A stretch of DNA of 8,870 nucleotides from Caldisericota bacterium (GTDB lineage: Bacteria > Caldisericota > JANLFM01): NCBI GenBank assembly GCA_024655865.1, contig JANLFM010000038.1, positions 1 to 8,870 on the forward strand, in the 5' to 3' direction. The notes beneath the pieces were generated by a model that ran no database searches, was not told the origin of the DNA, and saw only the letters and a program-made list of their open reading frames with translations. Made by a program: the position numbers and the translations under genes. Position 1 is the stretch's first letter; every line of letters begins with the position of its first letter. Positions 2,620 to 8,870 of the stretch are shown piece by piece.

Positions 2620-2636
2620 ACAGTCCCTATTTTTTG
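2620..2636. repeat. 17-bp inverted repeat copy, right of the pseudogene
   Basis: ACAGTCCCTATTTTTTG here is the exact reverse complement of 1814-1830. The two copies face each other across about 790 bases that hold the methyltransferase pseudogene. The last ten bases overlap the end of the DUF364 gene, whose final AAA AAA TAG codons are part of the repeat. Unlike the left copy, this one is only a half-site and is not itself palindromic. Confidence 0.65.
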
Positions 2637-3352
2637 AGGAGGCTCACCTTCCTGATCCCGCAGGGAACTATCTGGTGCAGATTTCCTCCCTGGGAGAGGC
2701 AATCCAGGACTCGGGGGGGGTCGAGCACCATGCTTGAGGAGACCACATGCACTCCATAATCGAACCACACCCGGGAAAGAGGCGCAGAAGGCCCCATGAC
2801 CACGACCAAACTATGGGGGGAGACTAGGCCCAAAAGCTGATCAATGGTCCCGTTAATGAGGGCAGATCCTGTAATGGCCACAATATCCGACTGAGGGATA
2901 ATCTCCGGAGCAGCGGAAGCAGGAAGATCTTCAGGGCGGGGATTCAGCTCCAGAACCCAGAGCTTTTCCGCCACCTTCCTGAGCTCAGGGACAAAAGGGA
3001 AATGCCCCACTAAAGCTATTTTCTTTCCCGCACCCTGGTGGAGGAGGAAATCCCCGGCATCCAGTTCCTGCAGGCTATCTTCCTCAGGGTCAATTAGCGA
3101 GTTCATTGCGGCTATAGCCAGTGAGCGCTCGGTCATAAGAGGAGAGGTCCACAGTTTTGCCAGCTCTAAGGCAGGTTTACCTTTTAGCCCCCCAGCCTCC
3201 CTAACTGCGGGTTCGTGCTCTGGTCCAGGCCAGAGGGTCAAAGCGATGCCGCACCTTTTGCTCCAGACCCCTGTCCAGAAGATCCCGATTCTCGCCTCCT
3301 GGATCTCAGCGTCCTCTTTGATTGACTCTAATATACTCTGCGCTACCTGCAT
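2627..3352 (-). CDS. DUF4213/DUF364 putative heavy-metal-chelation protein
   Basis: A 241-residue soluble protein of the DUF364 family (Pfam 'putative heavy-metal chelation'), with the DUF4213 domain in front. The family's known structure combines an enolase-N-like domain with a Rossmann-like domain. Residues 1 to about 105 are the first domain (note GxxWxxxxxKRCGIALTL, 28-40, and PLMTERSLAIAAMNSLI, 71-87). The second carries VGHFPF (115-120), VLELNPRPED (133-142), TGSALINGTI (161-170) and GPSAPL (187-192), all typical of the family. Length is normal. ATG at 3352 has GAGGTG five bases upstream. It is transcribed away from a FecCD-type ABC importer from a shared 105-bp gap, a common setting for this family. 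The biochemical role is unproven; a part in metal or metal-cofactor handling is inferred from the family name and the neighbours. Confidence 0.9.
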   Translation of the reverse strand: MQVAQSILESIKEDAEIQEARIGIFWTGVWSKRCGIALTLWPGPEHEPAVREAGGLKGKPALELAKLWTSPLMTERSLAIAAMNSLIDPEEDSLQELDAGDFLLHQGAGKKIALVGHFPFVPELRKVAEKLWVLELNPRPEDLPASAAPEIIPQSDIVAITGSALINGTIDQLLGLVSPHSLVVVMGPSAPLSRVWFDYGVHVVSSSMVLDPPRVLDCLSQGGNLHQIVPCGIRKVSLLKK

Positions 3353-3381
3353 AAAAGCACCTCAAGCCTGAAATTGCATTG

Positions 3382-3410
3382 AGGATACACCCTGCGATTG
3401 TCTTTTGCAA
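3382..3410 (-). promoter_or_regulatory. Promoter for the DUF364 gene
   Basis: On the minus strand, TTGCAA (3410-3405) and TATCCT (3387-3382) are separated by exactly 17 bases, a reasonable sigma-70-type promoter. The start would fall near 3375, giving a leader of about 22 bases with the GAGGTG ribosome binding site. Its -35 box lies inside the spacer of the opposing promoter, so the two cannot be occupied freely at the same time. Confidence 0.5.
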
Positions 3411-3425
3411 TAAAATGGTTATAAT
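3398..3425 (+). promoter_or_regulatory. Promoter for the ABC importer operon
   Basis: TTGTCT (3398-3403), a 16-base spacer and a perfect TATAAT (3420-3425) form a good sigma-70-type promoter. The start near 3432 gives a leader of about 26 bases with AAAGGAGA (3443-3450) before the GTG. A short dyad, TGGTT (3416-3420) and AACCA (3429-3433), straddles the -10 and could be an operator for a metal-responsive repressor, but its arms are only five bases. Confidence 0.6.
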
Positions 3426-3457
3426 TTGAACCACAATTTTGTAAAGGAGATGCGATA

Positions 3458-4549
3458 GTGAAGGACAAAATTTCGAAGACCACTATTTTTATTGCCTTGT
3501 TCATAATTTTACTCACATCTTGCCAGAGCAATACCCCGACTTCAAGCCAGACCCATGGGACCATCCAGGTTACGGATGCCCTCCAGAGAACAATCTTGCT
3601 CGATCACCCTCCAGAGCGGATTATTGTGGTAGGGAAGGCTTCCTTCATGATCCTTGACTCCTTCTATCTTTTCCCCGGAGCTGGAGATAAGCTAATCGCC
3701 TATTCCGGTGGTGGGGTAAACGACCCCAAATCCTTCCTCTCCCTAATTGATACCCAGCTGGAAAGCAAACAAGTTCTGGAATACGAAGTAGGACCCGAAC
3801 AGGTCGCCGCTTTGAAGCCCGACCTGGTCCTGATGAAGAGTTACCTCGCAAGCAAAAGCGGAGCGGCATTGGAAAAATTAGGGATCAAAGTCTGTTATCT
3901 GGATTTAGAGACTCCGGAGACCTTTTTACGGGACATCGGAATCTTAGGCACGATTTTGAACATGCCCGAACGAGCGAAGCAGATCCAGAATTTCTACCAA
4001 ACAAGACTGAATTTTGTACAGAAAAAAACCCAGAACCTTTCCTTTAAGCCCAAAGTGCTCCTTGCTCAGTACAGTGAAAAAGGAGGATCAGGGTCACTCA
4101 GCGTGCCGCCGGCTTCCTGGATTCAGACAGCGATGGTCTCCCTCTCGGGAGGAGAGCCAGTCTGGGCCTCCAGCTCTCAGGGTGGCGGCTATACTGTAGT
4201 CAATTTCGAGCAAGTGCTTTTCTGGAACCCGGATATCCTGATCCTCGTAGCTTACGGGCAGGATTCCTCCTCCATAGCCAAGAAATTGAAAGAAGACCCT
4301 AAGTGGAGAGAGCTCAAGGCGGTGAAAGAAAATGCTCTTTACGGTTTTCCCGCGGACTTTTTCTCCTGGGATCAACCTGATCCCCGCTGGATTTTAGGGT
4401 TAGAGTGGGTTGCCGGGCGCCTGCATCCTGAGCTTTTTACCTTAAAGATGAGGGAAGAAGTGAGGAAATTTTATGAGGAGCTTTATGGCCTTAGCCCGGA
4501 GAAAATAAATGATCTGATATTCCCCGCGCTTAAAGGGGATCTCGATTGA
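3458..4549 (+). CDS. Lipoprotein solute-binding protein of a FecCD-type ABC importer (class III, BtuF/FepB fold)
   Basis: A 363-residue membrane-anchored binding protein (periplasmic-binding-protein family PF01497) that would capture substrate outside the membrane and deliver it to the permease encoded next. The N-terminus is a lipoprotein signal: basic start, hydrophobic stretch and lipobox LTSC, with Cys22 the lipidated residue. The mature part begins with IQVTDALQRTILLDHPPERII, as in the family, and continues with EQVAALKPDLVLM (first lobe), a connecting helix, and VNFEQVLFWNPDILI (second lobe). Near the end WDQPDPRW (304-311) and LHPELF resemble binding proteins of iron-chelate and MolA-like molybdate systems more than BtuF, but substrate cannot be fixed. 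GTG at 3458 has AAAGGAGA seven bases before it. Its stop codon overlaps the permease start (TTGA). First gene of the operon. Confidence 0.92.
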   Translation: MKDKISKTTIFIALFIILLTSCQSNTPTSSQTHGTIQVTDALQRTILLDHPPERIIVVGKASFMILDSFYLFPGAGDKLIAYSGGGVNDPKSFLSLIDTQLESKQVLEYEVGPEQVAALKPDLVLMKSYLASKSGAALEKLGIKVCYLDLETPETFLRDIGILGTILNMPERAKQIQNFYQTRLNFVQKKTQNLSFKPKVLLAQYSEKGGSGSLSVPPASWIQTAMVSLSGGEPVWASSSQGGGYTVVNFEQVLFWNPDILILVAYGQDSSSIAKKLKEDPKWRELKAVKENALYGFPADFFSWDQPDPRWILGLEWVAGRLHPELFTLKMREEVRKFYEELYGLSPEKINDLIFPALKGDLD

Positions 4550-5580
4550 AGGATCTGGCTTCCACACAATCGAAGCGCATTGAGGTAAGAAGCAGGGTGC
4601 TTCTTGGAAAAGTTGCCCTTTTTGCCCTTTTCGTCCTCCTGTGCACGCTCCTTTCCCTTCTTGTGGGACGATATCCAGCTCCTTACGTTCAATCCCCTCA
4701 GGCTATTTTCTCTGACCCCATGGCCCTGAACCTGGTAGTCAATTATCGCCTTCCAAGAATTCTGCTTTCCTTACTGTTAGGAGCTACTCTCTCCGCTTCA
4801 GGAGTGGTATTGCAGATGATCTTCCGCAATCCCCTTGTGGAACCAGGATTTTTGGGTGTCTCTCAGGGCGCTGCCTTCGGGGCTTCCCTGGCGATTATTT
4901 TCCTGGGGGGATCCCTTTTGACTACCGAAATAGTGGCTGCCCTTTTTGGTATTCTCGGACTCTTCCTATCCGTTTTTCTGGCCCGGAGATTACGTTACGG
5001 AGGTTGGGTTCTGCGGTTGATCCTTGCGGGTATTGCTGTTTCCGCGCTCTTCTCTGCGGGGGTGGGAGTGCTAAAATACCTGGCTGATCCCTTAAAGCAG
5101 CTTCCAGAAATCACTTTCTGGCTTTTAGGGGGACTCTGGGGAAGCGATTGGCATCAGGTTATCTATGTTGTGCCTTTTGTGCTTCCTGCCCTCTTCATCC
5201 TCTATTTAATCAGGTGGCGCTTGAACATCCTCACCCTGGACGAGAGCACCGCTTTTTCCTTGGGAGTAAGGCCGGGAAAGGAGAAGATGTTAGTGCTCGC
5301 CCTTTCGGTTATTCCCGTAGCGGTAATGGTTTCCGTTGCTGGTATCGTGGGTTGGGTTGGTCTGATCATTCCCCACATCTCGCGCAAGTTAGTAGGGGCC
5401 AATTCCCAGTTTTCTTTTCCTGCCTCTTTATTCTTAGGAGCGCTTTTCTGTCTCTTCTGCGACACCATTGCCCGGACTTTGCTCTGGGGGGAAATACCCC
5501 TGGGCATACTCACCTCCTTAATCGGGGCTTTCATTTTCCTCCTTATCCTCACCAGGCCCTCAAGCCGGGGGTTCGTATGA
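4546..5580 (+). CDS. FecCD-family ABC importer permease
   Basis: A 344-residue inner-membrane permease of the BtuC/FecCD/FhuB family, expected to form a homodimer with about ten helices per subunit. Diagnostic stretches are RNPLVEPGFLGVSQGAA (94-110) and the cytoplasmic coupling region VGLIIPHISRKLVG (271-284), followed by CDTIAR and GEIPLGILTSLIGAFIF. The length is usual for the family. The TTG at 4546 is the start: it overlaps the stop of the binding protein by four bases, and AAAGGGG (4532-4538) lies seven bases upstream. The stop overlaps the ATPase ATG in an ATGA arrangement. Family members carry iron-siderophores, heme, cobalamin or molybdate; the sequence does not decide which. The first about 20 residues are a polar cytoplasmic tail. 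Confidence 0.95.
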   Translation: MKDLASTQSKRIEVRSRVLLGKVALFALFVLLCTLLSLLVGRYPAPYVQSPQAIFSDPMALNLVVNYRLPRILLSLLLGATLSASGVVLQMIFRNPLVEPGFLGVSQGAAFGASLAIIFLGGSLLTTEIVAALFGILGLFLSVFLARRLRYGGWVLRLILAGIAVSALFSAGVGVLKYLADPLKQLPEITFWLLGGLWGSDWHQVIYVVPFVLPALFILYLIRWRLNILTLDESTAFSLGVRPGKEKMLVLALSVIPVAVMVSVAGIVGWVGLIIPHISRKLVGANSQFSFPASLFLGALFCLFCDTIARTLLWGEIPLGILTSLIGAFIFLLILTRPSSRGFV

Positions 5581-6371
5581 GCGCACTTTCCCTTTCTGAA
5601 GTGAGCTTCTCCTATATTCCCGGGGAACCGGTGATCAAGGACGTTTCCTTTTCCTTGGAATCCGGACGCATCCTCGCTCTCCTCGGTCCTAACGGTTCCG
5701 GAAAGACTACCCTTTTACACCTGATTTTAGGGCAGCTTTCCCCGGAGAAAGGAAAAATTGAGATTTTTGGCCGTGAAATAAGGTCTTATTCCAGATCAGA
5801 GCTGAGCAAAATTATTGGCCTTGCCCGCCAGGAGGAAAGGGTCGCTTTTGAGTTCACCGTTTTAGAATACGTGCTTTTGGGTCGCGCGCCCTATCTGGGC
5901 CCTCTGGAAGCCCCGGGGAGCGAGGATTACAAGATGGCGGTTCAAGCACTGGAACGGACAGGAACACTCCATCTTCAGGACCGCTTTCTCACTTCCTTAA
6001 GCGGGGGTGAGAAACAACTTGTGATCATTGCCCGGGCCCTGGCTCAGATGCCCGGAATCCTGCTTTTAGACGAACCCTTAGCGCACCTGGATTTAAAGAA
6101 CCAATCCATGCTCCTTGAAGTGCTGGAGAACTTGAGGGAACAGGGGGTCACGATTATCTTCTCCACACACGACCCAAATTCCACAAGCATCGTTGCTGAT
6201 CAGGTTTTGCTTCTCCGGAAGGGCTCCTCCCTTCAATTCGGCCCTCCTGGGGATGTTCTGGAAAAGGAAAAGCTGCAGTCCACCTACGGAGTGCCCATCA
6301 GAGTTTTGGAAACGGAGGGAGAGCGTTACGTTTTTCCCGAAAACGGGAGGAGGCGTAAAAGGGTTGTCTGA
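5577..6371 (+). CDS. ABC importer ATP-binding protein (FepC/BtuD-like)
   Basis: A 264-residue ABC ATPase that powers the FecCD permease. All motifs are intact: A-loop Tyr13, Walker A GPNGSGKTT (37-45), Q-loop Gln85, signature LSGGEKQ (141-147), Walker B ILLLDEP (161-167), D-loop HLD and H-loop His198 in STHD. The ATG at 5577 overlaps the permease stop by four bases; an upstream open stretch in the same frame lies wholly within the permease gene and is not coding. The protein ends in a basic tail (RRRKR), and its last codons contain the GGGAGGAGG ribosome binding site of the following NTPase gene, which it overlaps by eight bases. FepC/BtuD-class size and layout; the substrate is unresolved. 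Confidence 0.95.
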   Translation: MSALSLSEVSFSYIPGEPVIKDVSFSLESGRILALLGPNGSGKTTLLHLILGQLSPEKGKIEIFGREIRSYSRSELSKIIGLARQEERVAFEFTVLEYVLLGRAPYLGPLEAPGSEDYKMAVQALERTGTLHLQDRFLTSLSGGEKQLVIIARALAQMPGILLLDEPLAHLDLKNQSMLLEVLENLREQGVTIIFSTHDPNSTSIVADQVLLLRKGSSLQFGPPGDVLEKEKLQSTYGVPIRVLETEGERYVFPENGRRRKRVV

Positions 6372-6879
6372 GATCACCCTTCTTACCGGGCCCTTTCTTT
6401 CCGGAAAGACCTCTTTCTGCCTGGAATTTTCCCTTGAGCTGAAAGACAGGGGAAAGGACGTCAGGGGGATAATTTCCCTTGCGGAATTTGAAGGAGGAAG
6501 AAAGGCTCGCATCTGGGCCCGGGATCTGAAATCAGGTGAAAGGAAGCTCTTTGCCCGAAAGGAGGGCGAGGGGCTCGCAATTCCTCAGCTTTCACCCTGG
6601 GTTTTCGATCGGAAAGCGATTAGCTGGGTAAATTCCAGGCTTGAGGAAGCTATCCCTTGTGATGTTCTAATCGTGGATGAGCTCGGTCCCCTGGAGTTCC
6701 AGTTTCACGATGGCTTCCAGGCAGCCTTCAAAGCAATTGGCTCCCAAAGTTTCAAACTGGCTCTGGTAGTAGTACGCCCGGAGCTGTTAAATTTAGCCCT
6801 TAAGTGCTGGACTCCAGCCTCAATCCTGAAAATTGAGGAAGTGCACCGATGGGGACTGGAAATTCTTCAAACCCTATGA
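6364..6879 (+). CDS. THEP1-like P-loop nucleoside-triphosphatase, last gene of the importer operon
   Basis: A 171-residue P-loop NTPase resembling the THEP1 family (COG1618-type; activity on NTPs shown for some members, cellular role unclear). Walker A is GPFLSGKT (9-16) right at the N-terminus, followed by a helix and RGIISLAEFEGGRKARIWARD (34-54), which corresponds to the 'G-x-x-T-x-E-x-R-x-G-x-R-x-G-F' region of THEP1. Walker B with the family-type acidic motif is DVLIVDELGPLEF (100-112). The start is TTG at 6364: GGGAGGAGG (6345-6353) lies ten bases upstream, the protein then begins just before the P-loop as in the family, and the frame overlaps the ATPase gene by eight bases. Tight coupling to an ABC importer suggests it acts on the imported cargo or regulates the importer, but this is inference. 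Confidence 0.8.
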   Translation: MSEITLLTGPFLSGKTSFCLEFSLELKDRGKDVRGIISLAEFEGGRKARIWARDLKSGERKLFARKEGEGLAIPQLSPWVFDRKAISWVNSRLEEAIPCDVLIVDELGPLEFQFHDGFQAAFKAIGSQSFKLALVVVRPELLNLALKCWTPASILKIEEVHRWGLEILQTL

Positions 6880-7315: not shown

Positions 7316-7341
7316 GGTAATAAGCAAAGGAGGTGTTTCAA

Positions 7342-7734
7342 GTGAAATTTGGTCTTTATCGGTTTGTGTCAGGAGTTCTACAGGTATTTGCCTGGATTAT
7401 CTTGGTTGTCTGCGTGATCATGGCTATCGTGGTGGTTGCCTCTCCTGGCTATAGTTGGGTCTATTACTACAATATGCCTATGGGTGCCGCGGACATGATG
7501 GGGATGCGCTGGGTAGGGTTCCTTGCTCTCCTTCTTGGCGGAATTTCTGGCTGGGCTTTTCTCCTGGCAGTAGCCGGAATACTTATGGTCCTGATCTCTA
7601 TTGATCAAAACCTCTCTCCTCGCTATCAGCCATCTCAACCGACAACTGCTTCCGGAGCTGTTTGCCCGAACTGTGGCGCCAGAGTGAAGCCTGGCGACCG
7701 TTTCTGCCAAGCTTGCGGGGCAAAACTGGAGTGA
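7342..7734 (+). CDS. Membrane protein with C-terminal zinc ribbon
   Basis: A 130-residue protein with a hydrophobic span at about 14-33, a second hydrophobic region at about 57-87 that may be one long or two spans, a polar linker (88-107) and a C-terminal zinc ribbon. The ribbon has Cys108, Cys111, Cys122 and Cys125 (CPNCG then CQACG, spacing CX2C-X10-CX2C), the common zinc_ribbon_2 type, here probably cytoplasmic. The loop between the spans is rich in Tyr and Met (YYYNMPMGAADMMGM). GTG at 7342 is chosen over GTG at 7333 because the latter lies inside the ribosome binding site GGAGGTG. The DUF2007 gene follows after 12 bases, so the pair is likely an operon. Function unknown. Confidence 0.85.
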   Translation: MKFGLYRFVSGVLQVFAWIILVVCVIMAIVVVASPGYSWVYYYNMPMGAADMMGMRWVGFLALLLGGISGWAFLLAVAGILMVLISIDQNLSPRYQPSQPTTASGAVCPNCGARVKPGDRFCQACGAKLE

Positions 7735-7746
7735 GAAAGGAGAAAG

Positions 7747-7971
7747 GTGAAAAGCGAATGGGCGGTGGTTTTCCGCACAGATAACCCCATCGAAGCCTCC
7801 ATGGTGAAGAGCAAGCTGGAGGATGCGGGATTTCCCGTATTCGAAAAGGGAGAGACCTTAGGGAGGATTTATGGCCTCACGATAGGCTCTTTGGGAACAA
7901 TTGAAATTCTGGTTCCCTCTCACCTTTTAGAGGAAGCCTGGGAGGTAATCTCAAGGGAGGATGAGCTCTAA
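7747..7971 (+). CDS. DUF2007-family protein
   Basis: A 74-residue soluble protein of the DUF2007 family (annotated in Pfam as putative prokaryotic signal-transducing protein). The hallmark pattern is complete: VVFRTDNPIEASMVKSKLEDAGF (7-29, two-stranded start and helix as in ferredoxin-like folds), then IEILVPSHLLEEAWEVI (52-68). The start is GTG at 7747, with AAAGGAG (7736-7742) four bases before it. It lies 12 bases after the zinc-ribbon gene. Many DUF2007 proteins carry a zinc ribbon in the same chain; here the ribbon is in the gene next door, which hints that the two products act together. It converges with the ATP-grasp gene, with seven bases between stops and no terminator visible in the gap. 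Confidence 0.85.
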   Translation: MKSEWAVVFRTDNPIEASMVKSKLEDAGFPVFEKGETLGRIYGLTIGSLGTIEILVPSHLLEEAWEVISREDEL

Positions 7972-7978
7972 CTCTCCT

Positions 7979-8870
7979 TCAGACAAGAGCTGATATTCCC
8001 AGCGGGTATTCCACCTTTTCTGATTTGCTCCTTTCGAGCCTCTGGGGATAAAGTCTGGATATTCCCGCTTCGATGATTTTTCCTATCATCTGATCGTAGC
8101 TTAATCCTATTGATGCTGCCAGGCGGGAAAACATCCGTCCTTCTGCTAGCGCAGGATACTGGTTCACATCAATGGCGTAGAGTTCACCGGCCAAGACCTT
8201 AAAATCCACCCTTGCCATGTCCTTGAGATGTAGGGTCCGAAATATTCTCTTGGTTAGTTCAATGGCCCGCGAGGCGAGCTCTTTTTCTGGATAACAGGCT
8301 TCACCCCGACCATTGCTGAAAGAACCCTCCATGGTTATGTTCCAGGGGTTATGGTACTCTAAAGCCAATACTCCCAACTCCAACCAGTCCGGGTAATTTC
8401 CGATTAAACCGGCGTTGATTTCCCTTCCCAGGATAAACCTTTGAATAAGGATTGGTTCCGGCAATTTTTGATAAAGCCTGTTAGCCTGATCGAGGACTTC
8501 CTCCCGGCTCTGGCAGACTGAAAGCGGCCCGATTCCCATACTTGAGCCCTCGTTGTTATATTTAACGATGGCTGGAAGGGGGAACTCAATCCTCTCCAGG
8601 CCTGAAGGGTCTTCTACGACGATCCAATCGGGAACAGGGATCCCATGAGCTTTCAAAACAGCATTGGTCATCCCTTTGTCCAGACAGATAGCAGAGCCCA
8701 GGACACCTGTTCCCAGAAACTTCACCCCCTGAGAGATGCATAGAGCCGGAAGGATAGCTTCCCTATCCTCCATCCCAATTGTTCCCTCGGCAATGTTAAA
8801 GATCAGGTCTATTCCGCTTTCCTTTAAAATCCAGGGTTTGCTGAAAATTTCCAGATCAGTAAAGATCTGA
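7979..8870 (-). CDS. D-alanine-D-alanine ligase-like ATP-grasp protein (5' end outside window)
   Basis: The frame is open to the right edge, so only the last 296 residues are seen; the ATG at 8773 is internal, because the residues before it (GIDLIFNIAEG) belong to the conserved N-terminal part. Visible family features: NIAEG and the REAILPA segment, FLGTGVLGSAICLDKGMTN (preATP-grasp to ATP-grasp link), VKYNNEGSSMGI (ATP-binding loop), LIQRFILGREINAGLIG, and the metal-binding end MARVDFKV and IDVNQYPAL. The family joins D-alanine or related amino acids using ATP for peptidoglycan or other peptides. The final motif differs from the canonical E-[IV]-N-T-x-P-G of true Ddl: Asp replaces Glu and Gln-Tyr replace Thr-x, so another substrate is plausible. 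Neighbours give no pathway clue. Confidence 0.85.
   Translation of the reverse strand, partial: QIFTDLEIFSKPWILKESGIDLIFNIAEGTIGMEDREAILPALCISQGVKFLGTGVLGSAICLDKGMTNAVLKAHGIPVPDWIVVEDPSGLERIEFPLPAIVKYNNEGSSMGIGPLSVCQSREEVLDQANRLYQKLPEPILIQRFILGREINAGLIGNYPDWLELGVLALEYHNPWNITMEGSFSNGRGEACYPEKELASRAIELTKRIFRTLHLKDMARVDFKVLAGELYAIDVNQYPALAEGRMFSRLAASIGLSYDQMIGKIIEAGISRLYPQRLERSKSEKVEYPLGISALV

Follow-up and report, generated by a model that had tools for sequence, protein, structure and literature searches.

What does a small P-loop nucleoside triphosphatase (NTPase) of the THEP1 family do at the end of the operon of an ABC importer? This question is raised by a stretch of Caldisericota DNA of 8,870 nucleotides (contig JANLFM010000038.1, hereafter the window), which is contig C31 in a genome bin of 1.82 Mb (the host genome, G000). 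The window encodes a substrate-binding protein (SBP), a FecCD-type permease, an ABC ATPase and the NTPase in overlapping genes, and a DUF364 protein in a gene divergent from them. That a THEP1-family NTPase and a DUF364 protein go with MolABC-like FecCD importers is a real and recurrent coupling, undescribed in the literature that we searched: neither papers on DUF364 nor those on THEP1 and ABC transporters were found to describe the pairing. We infer that the importer in the window probably carries molybdate or tungstate; for the module in general this substrate is less probable, because some evidence fits it badly, namely the sparse molybdenum/tungsten (Mo/W) gene context, the f5 genomes of the Caldisericota and locus L104, all described below.

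Organization of the locus

The module consists of the following genes.

2627-3352, minus strand: DUF364/DUF4213 protein, 241 aa (PF04016, 133.9 bits; PF13938, 59.2 bits)
3458-4549, plus strand: substrate-binding lipoprotein (SBP), 363 aa, with a lipobox-like LLTSC (Pfam PF01497 Peripla_BP_2, 83 bits)
4546-5580, plus strand: FecCD-type permease, 344 aa (Pfam PF01032, 267.7 bits)
5577-6371, plus strand: ABC importer ATPase, 264 aa (Pfam PF00005 ABC_tran, 118 bits)
6364-6879, plus strand: THEP1-like P-loop NTPase, 171 aa (Pfam PF03266 NTPase_1, 52.1 bits, cut-off 23.9)

Reading of the open reading frames (ORFs) confirms what a first-pass annotation of the window had noticed, namely four plus-strand genes that overlap by 4 (SBP/permease), 4 (permease/ATPase) and 8 bases (ATPase/NTPase), a DUF364 gene on the opposite strand, and the motif DELGPLE in Walker B of the NTPase (IVDELGPLE). 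The span given there, 5577-6879, does hold the ATPase and the NTPase, but the whole unit including DUF364 extends from 2627 to 6879. The start codon of the NTPase is a TTG inside the ATPase gene, preceded by GGAGGAGG. A permease, an ABC ATPase and a Peripla_BP_2 SBP in one operon constitute a type II (FecCD-type) ABC importer. In the DUF364 protein, PF04016 and PF13938 both score over their cut-offs, giving the same two-domain architecture as in the DUF364 family, of which 3l5o and 3npg are the PDB relatives.

Conservation of the gene order

The gene order of the module occurs in each of the five host-family genomes, in part split by contig ends. The whole arrangement is repeated in a genome of the same genus (G001, locus L009), where identity to the window proteins is 57% for the NTPase, 75% for DUF364, 65% for the SBP, 73% for the permease and 79% for the ATPase, and pieces of the module are found in G002 (L013), G003 (L012 and L149) and G004 (L010 and L146). 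The DUF364 gene adjoins the SBP gene or is one gene from the permease gene in 5/5 of these genomes; it is divergent as in the window at L009 and L149, and lies near the permease at L013 and L146.

A scan of reference genomes yielded 20 loci. The order SBP-permease-ATPase-NTPase recurs in five phyla and was found in Chloroflexota, Ca. Fraserbacteria, Thiobacillus, another betaproteobacterium and Trueperaceae; at one Chloroflexota locus DUF364 also adjoins the module. Relatives of the NTPase are encoded by 135 of 396 genomes drawn from the Anaerolinea-type class, and the best-scoring 30 of these loci comprise 23 beside FecCD genes, 2 in an energy-coupling factor (ECF) transporter operon and 5 at contig ends or in other settings. 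When Anaerolineae loci were taken with wide flanks, FecCD genes lay within 5 kb at 16 of the 30 loci that scored at least 134 bits, and seven of the 30 were ECF-linked; the lower-scoring loci gave 0/17 and 1/17, respectively (Fisher p = 1e-4 for FecCD and 2e-6 for FecCD or ECF, values that are rough because the genomes are interrelated). Sixteen module-bearing genomes have between one and four FecCD permeases each, a number at which chance would put about 1% of NTPase loci close to one, and the gene order is far beyond chance.

In the tree of the NTPases, one supported clade (98/91) of 58 members contains all 37 FecCD-linked proteins, and the FecCD label changes 12 times on this tree, versus 26.7 times in shuffles. 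The first-pass annotation had suggested a five-part module, and had named as the contrary outcome that NTPase homologues would lie mostly away from FecCD and DUF364 loci or that the arrangement would be limited to one genome. Neither is the case, given the 37 FecCD-linked members of the clade and the spread over several phyla, and the five-part module is indeed recurrent, with a second NTPase subfamily in nine more genomes.

This second form was found in a phylum-wide survey of DUF364. It is an operon of the order NTPase-DUF364-SBP-ATPase-permease, present in G007, G008, G010, G012, G016, G018, G022, G051 and G052 and, cut by the contig end, in G032. Its NTPases belong to another subfamily that was not retrieved by the search with the window NTPase, and the two tested are clear PF03266 members (113 and 103 bits); the one permease tested prefers HI1471 among solved structures. 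With two subfamilies of the NTPase and two gene orders, and the same three partner types in each, a functional link is much likelier than a frozen accident. A variant in G005 has the order SBP-permease-ATPase-DUF364, with a MobA/MocA-like NTP transferase in front. The papers found do not describe the stable pairing of DUF364 with a PF03266 NTPase.

One might suppose instead that a housekeeping THEP1 enzyme came to lie behind the importer by chance, and canonical THEP1 genes do occur elsewhere in the phylum with unrelated neighbours (L014, L015). This explanation is extremely improbable, being contradicted by the recurrence across phyla, the two independent architectures and the gene fusions described below.

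The contig of G040 that carries L011 was considered as evidence from a second Caldisericota family and rejected: its NTPase nests with those of Anaerolinea, so that the contig is probably misbinned or transferred. An XdhC-like fragment at L011 seems frame-shifted and is a weak hint only. In addition, a TsaA/TrmO-like gene, identified by eye, adjoins DUF364 at L066 (10351-11536) and L067 (8438-9811) and lies near an NTPase module at L085 (9449-9922).

The NTPase and its relatives

The NTPase has the Walker A motif GPFLSGKT and the Walker B motif VLIVDELGPLE. It is a member of PF03266 that falls outside the NCBIfam equivalog NF010248 (PRK13695 NTPase; 43.2 bits versus a cut-off of 156), as judged from profile scores. 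The AlphaFold model is a confident single domain (predicted local distance difference test, pLDDT, 94.5), which superimposes on THEP1 (1ye8) with Z 17.7 and a root mean square deviation of 2.3 over 156 residues, and on human NTPCR (2i3b) with Z 14.3. After the THEP1 structures, the nearest folds are those of CobA corrinoid adenosyltransferases, with Z about 10. The protein is thus predicted to share with the THEP1/NTPCR family (PF03266, COG1618) the RecA-variant fold seen in 1ye8, together with Walker A, Walker B and the catalytic glutamate of the additional-strand, conserved-E (ASCE) type. G14-K15 and D105-E106 are invariant in the alignment. Proteins of this family range from archaea to humans, and their cellular role is unsettled (PMC1079890, PMC2700126).

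The window NTPase differs from other members of the family in several respects. Its profile score is weaker (52 bits, whereas NTPases of the second operon form score 103-113), its gene is operonic with those of a transporter, and the importer-linked clade is marked by an invariant Trp79 (57/57; 9% outside the clade) and by Cys19 in 98% of its members.

The same clade also occurs in operons of ECF-type transporters (L024, 1102-4956; L029, L033, L076 and L096). These contain a double ABC ATPase, an S-component-like membrane protein and CbiQ, a small lipoprotein with a weak Oxidored_molyb match, and MobB/MoeA or FmdE/TorD as partner genes; the transporter may serve a Mo/W or pterin-related substrate. 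In the wider group, NTPase genes adjoin those of a PiT-like transporter with its DUF47 partner at L100 (3587-5784) and L101 (7930-10143), and at L101 an Oxidored_molyb protein is close by.

Fusions between the ATPase and the NTPase

At four loci (L023, L028, L086 and L087), an uninterrupted ORF of 444-458 codons encodes a FecCD-type ABC ATPase followed by a C-terminal NTPase, and the same fusion is present at a contig end in L020. Such fusions occur in Anaerolineaceae and Trueperaceae, and they are Rosetta-stone evidence that the NTPase works at the ATPase of the importer. Because the model of the fused protein has low confidence (pLDDT 77.8; predicted template modelling score, pTM, 0.63; four sequences), we claim no domain contacts.

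What the NTPase does at this position can be read in two ways. The likeliest mechanism, by analogy with MobB and MoeA, would be a hand-off at the ABC ATPase driven by nucleoside triphosphates (NTP). Its chief mechanistic rival is a gate: with the same importer and the same substrate, the NTPase would dock on the nucleotide-binding domain and switch transport according to the level of a nucleotide or metal, leaving the cargo untouched. Both the translational overlap of the two genes and the fusions, in which the NTPase directly follows the C-terminus of the ABC ATPase, suit a gate, and regulatory domains fused to the ABC ATPases of other importers are known. However, NTPases of the same clade are found with ECF transporters or with no transporter, so that a cargo-specific role fits better than docking on a given ATPase; we regard gating as fairly unlikely.

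Kinship of the importer

Compared with solved structures, the permease matches HI1471 (MolB) best (E 1.3e-63), before HmuU (1.1e-49) and BtuC (1.1e-33), and is thus nearer to HI1471 than to iron, hemin or B12 permeases. Among the importers matched in the PDB, HI1470 (MolC) is the best for the ATPase (E 3.9e-44; HmuV, 1.8e-38). For the SBP, the best characterised relative is HI1472 (MolA; E 5.6e-23), before IsdE (3.5e-13) and BtuF (1.1e-8); MolA is fourth overall, behind 4ovk, 4hn9 and 4pag, structures that have no assigned molybdate role. The other FecCD permease of the host, taken as a control, has HI1471 in fourth place, after FhuB, HmuU and a further hemin permease. HI1470-HI1472 constitute MolBC-A, which imports molybdate and whose SBP binds both molybdate and tungstate (PMC4031551). 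The window shares with this system of Haemophilus influenzae a FecCD-fold permease, an ABC ATPase and a Peripla_BP_2-type SBP. We know of no THEP1-like NTPase or DUF364 partner of MolBC-A.

Molybdenum and tungsten genes near the module

Outside the host family, the closest relatives of the window SBP are parts of fusion proteins. At L085 (4154-6049), L089 (114-2354) and L071 (2197-4020), a ModA-type (molybdate) SBP and a FecCD-type SBP form one polypeptide; the ModA part scores 163 bits (L085) and 142 bits (L071) against TIGR01256 (cut-off 62.5). The SBPs of L085 and L089 are 49% and 48% identical to that of the window, which falls with those of L085, L089, L071 and L068 in one fully supported clade. 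L085 also holds XdhC, Mop and a ModB-like permease. L071 has the order ModB, ModA-SBP fusion, DUF364, close to YqeC and a MoaA-like frame, and L068 the order XdhC, MoeA, SBP, DUF364. At L077, XdhC and ModA flank the module, and at L027, ModABC, a TonB receptor and SBP-permease-ATPase-NTPase form a contiguous same-strand block.

In the host family, the permease and DUF364 genes of G004 share a contig with AOR and with a tungsten-cofactor radical-SAM maturase (TIGR04317, 419 bits, cut-off 380). The host itself has two AORs and TupA-like-MoeA-MoaA-MoaC-MogA clusters on two contigs; the TupA-like SBP scores 214 bits, under the equivalog cut-off of 400. These near-parallel TupABC-MoeA-MoaA-MoaC-MOSC-MogA clusters, on C62 (L140) and C29 (L141), lie beside branched-chain amino-acid transporter genes and may reflect a recent duplication or a mixture of strains.

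The density of Mo/W markers at FecCD-linked loci is about 10x that at transporter-free NTPase loci, a count that is biased in that several markers derive from these same loci and in which three of the five positives are close kin. The flank of L019 has a weak TorD-like match.

Several observations weigh against a Mo/W substrate. With the marker set, a convincing Mo/W gene was found in the retrieved flanks of 5/32 FecCD-linked loci (L011, L027, L077, L085 and L089), and the window's own flanks contain no Mo/W gene. The host already has a TupABC-like tungstate importer. The FecCD-linked NTPases of Betaproteobacteria, of Trueperaceae and of the fusion loci are accompanied by a different SBP subfamily, and some DUF364 genes of Caldisericota are in other, housekeeping contexts. 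Both MobB and the NTPase are present in L024, in L096 and in the genomes of two betaproteobacteria. The second operon form is present in f5 Caldisericota that have neither MoeA nor AOR (e.g. G016 and G018, listed as 100% complete); the cargo of this form is then a different one, or the substrate common to the modules is not Mo/W. Finally, at L104 (5693-8562) a relative of the NTPase seems to share an operon with CobS, CbiR (cobamide remodelling) and CobU.

These observations bear on two other substrates. The importer could take up a siderophore-like chelate of iron or another metal, in which case DUF364 would make or open the chelator, the NTPase would free the metal or recycle the ligand, and the Mo/W links in relatives would be lineage-specific. 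The operons in genomes without MoeA and AOR would fit this, as would the TonB receptors upstream of the module in Betaproteobacteria and the earlier work (PMC2954201) that tied DUF364 to transport genes for iron, tungstate, vanadium and molybdate. On the other hand, the permease and ATPase are nearer to MolB and MolC than to FhuB or the hemin importers, and SBPs of the window type are fused to ModA in relatives; we consider a chelate importer unlikely. A corrinoid importer (for cobamide or cobinamide), with the NTPase acting on the incoming corrinoid in the manner of CobU- or CobA-type P-loop enzymes, would draw on the L104 operon, on the CobA-like folds and on BtuCD being a type II importer. 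It is very unlikely, since HI1471 and HI1472 are matched far better than BtuC and BtuF, the cobamide locus is the single one noticed and has its own CobU, and the Mo-specific fusions point elsewhere.

Other features of the window

Besides the module genes, the following features were recorded.

3353-3457, no strand: divergent intergenic region of 105 bp, from DUF364 to the SBP start
3398-3425, plus strand: single sigma-70-like match TTGTCT-16-TATAAT, from the promoter scan

In the region scanned for promoters and terminators, sites were no more numerous than in shuffled sequences. Positions 7333-8869, after the module, encode a zinc-ribbon membrane protein, a small protein and a D-Ala-D-Ala ligase-like ATP-grasp protein; the order of these genes is kept in L009, so that the neighbourhood is syntenic within the genus.

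Proposed function of the module

The chances seem to us about even that the locus encodes a MolBC-A-like type II (FecCD/BtuCD-fold) importer, that this importer takes up molybdate or tungstate, either free or as a chelate, and that two cytoplasmic proteins are dedicated to it. Capture of the substrate would fall to the lipoprotein SBP, and the permease and ATPase would carry it inward. The NTPase would act at the ABC ATPase, the cytoplasmic exit of the importer, where NTP turnover may serve to receive the incoming metal species, keep it soluble or release it. The metal species could then reach the machinery of the pterin cofactor (MoeA, XdhC, AOR maturation), much as MobB assists MoeA; a MoeA1-MobB platform for tungstate insertion has been reported in Methylorubrum (PMC13197769). 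DUF364 may supply or modify a chelating ligand or cofactor, which follows the proposal in its structural paper (PMC2954201).

The first-pass annotation had imagined an imported metal or cofactor handled by a MobB- or CobU-like NTPase. An imported metal or cofactor and a MobB-like action of the NTPase are compatible with the Mo/W evidence. In sequence, the NTPase matches neither the MobB profile PF03205 nor the CobU profile PF02283 up to E 0.1. It resembles MobB, the P-loop partner of MoeA in Mo/W cofactor assembly, in being a small P-loop protein in a Mo/W setting; unlike MobB, it is linked to an importer. MobB gave no match over the cut-off in the five host-family genomes or in the tested Chloroflexota genomes. 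The idea that the NTPase generally replaces MobB was rejected, since the two coexist in the genomes named above.

A more specific picture, which we offer tentatively as a possibility, is that of an importer-coupled, Mo/W-handling THEP1 ATPase seated on the ABC ATPase at the cytoplasmic exit, in some lineages as a fused domain, and forming with DUF364 a cargo-receiving station that feeds cofactor assembly. If this is true, a branch of the THEP1 family would gain its first cellular role. An NTPase branch that is repeatedly locked to an importer and fused with it offers a definite partner, a candidate for the substrate and the prospect of simple assays. Likewise, DUF364, mainly known from structures, would gain a pathway, and MolABC-type uptake of molybdate and tungstate would gain a cytoplasmic hand-off component.

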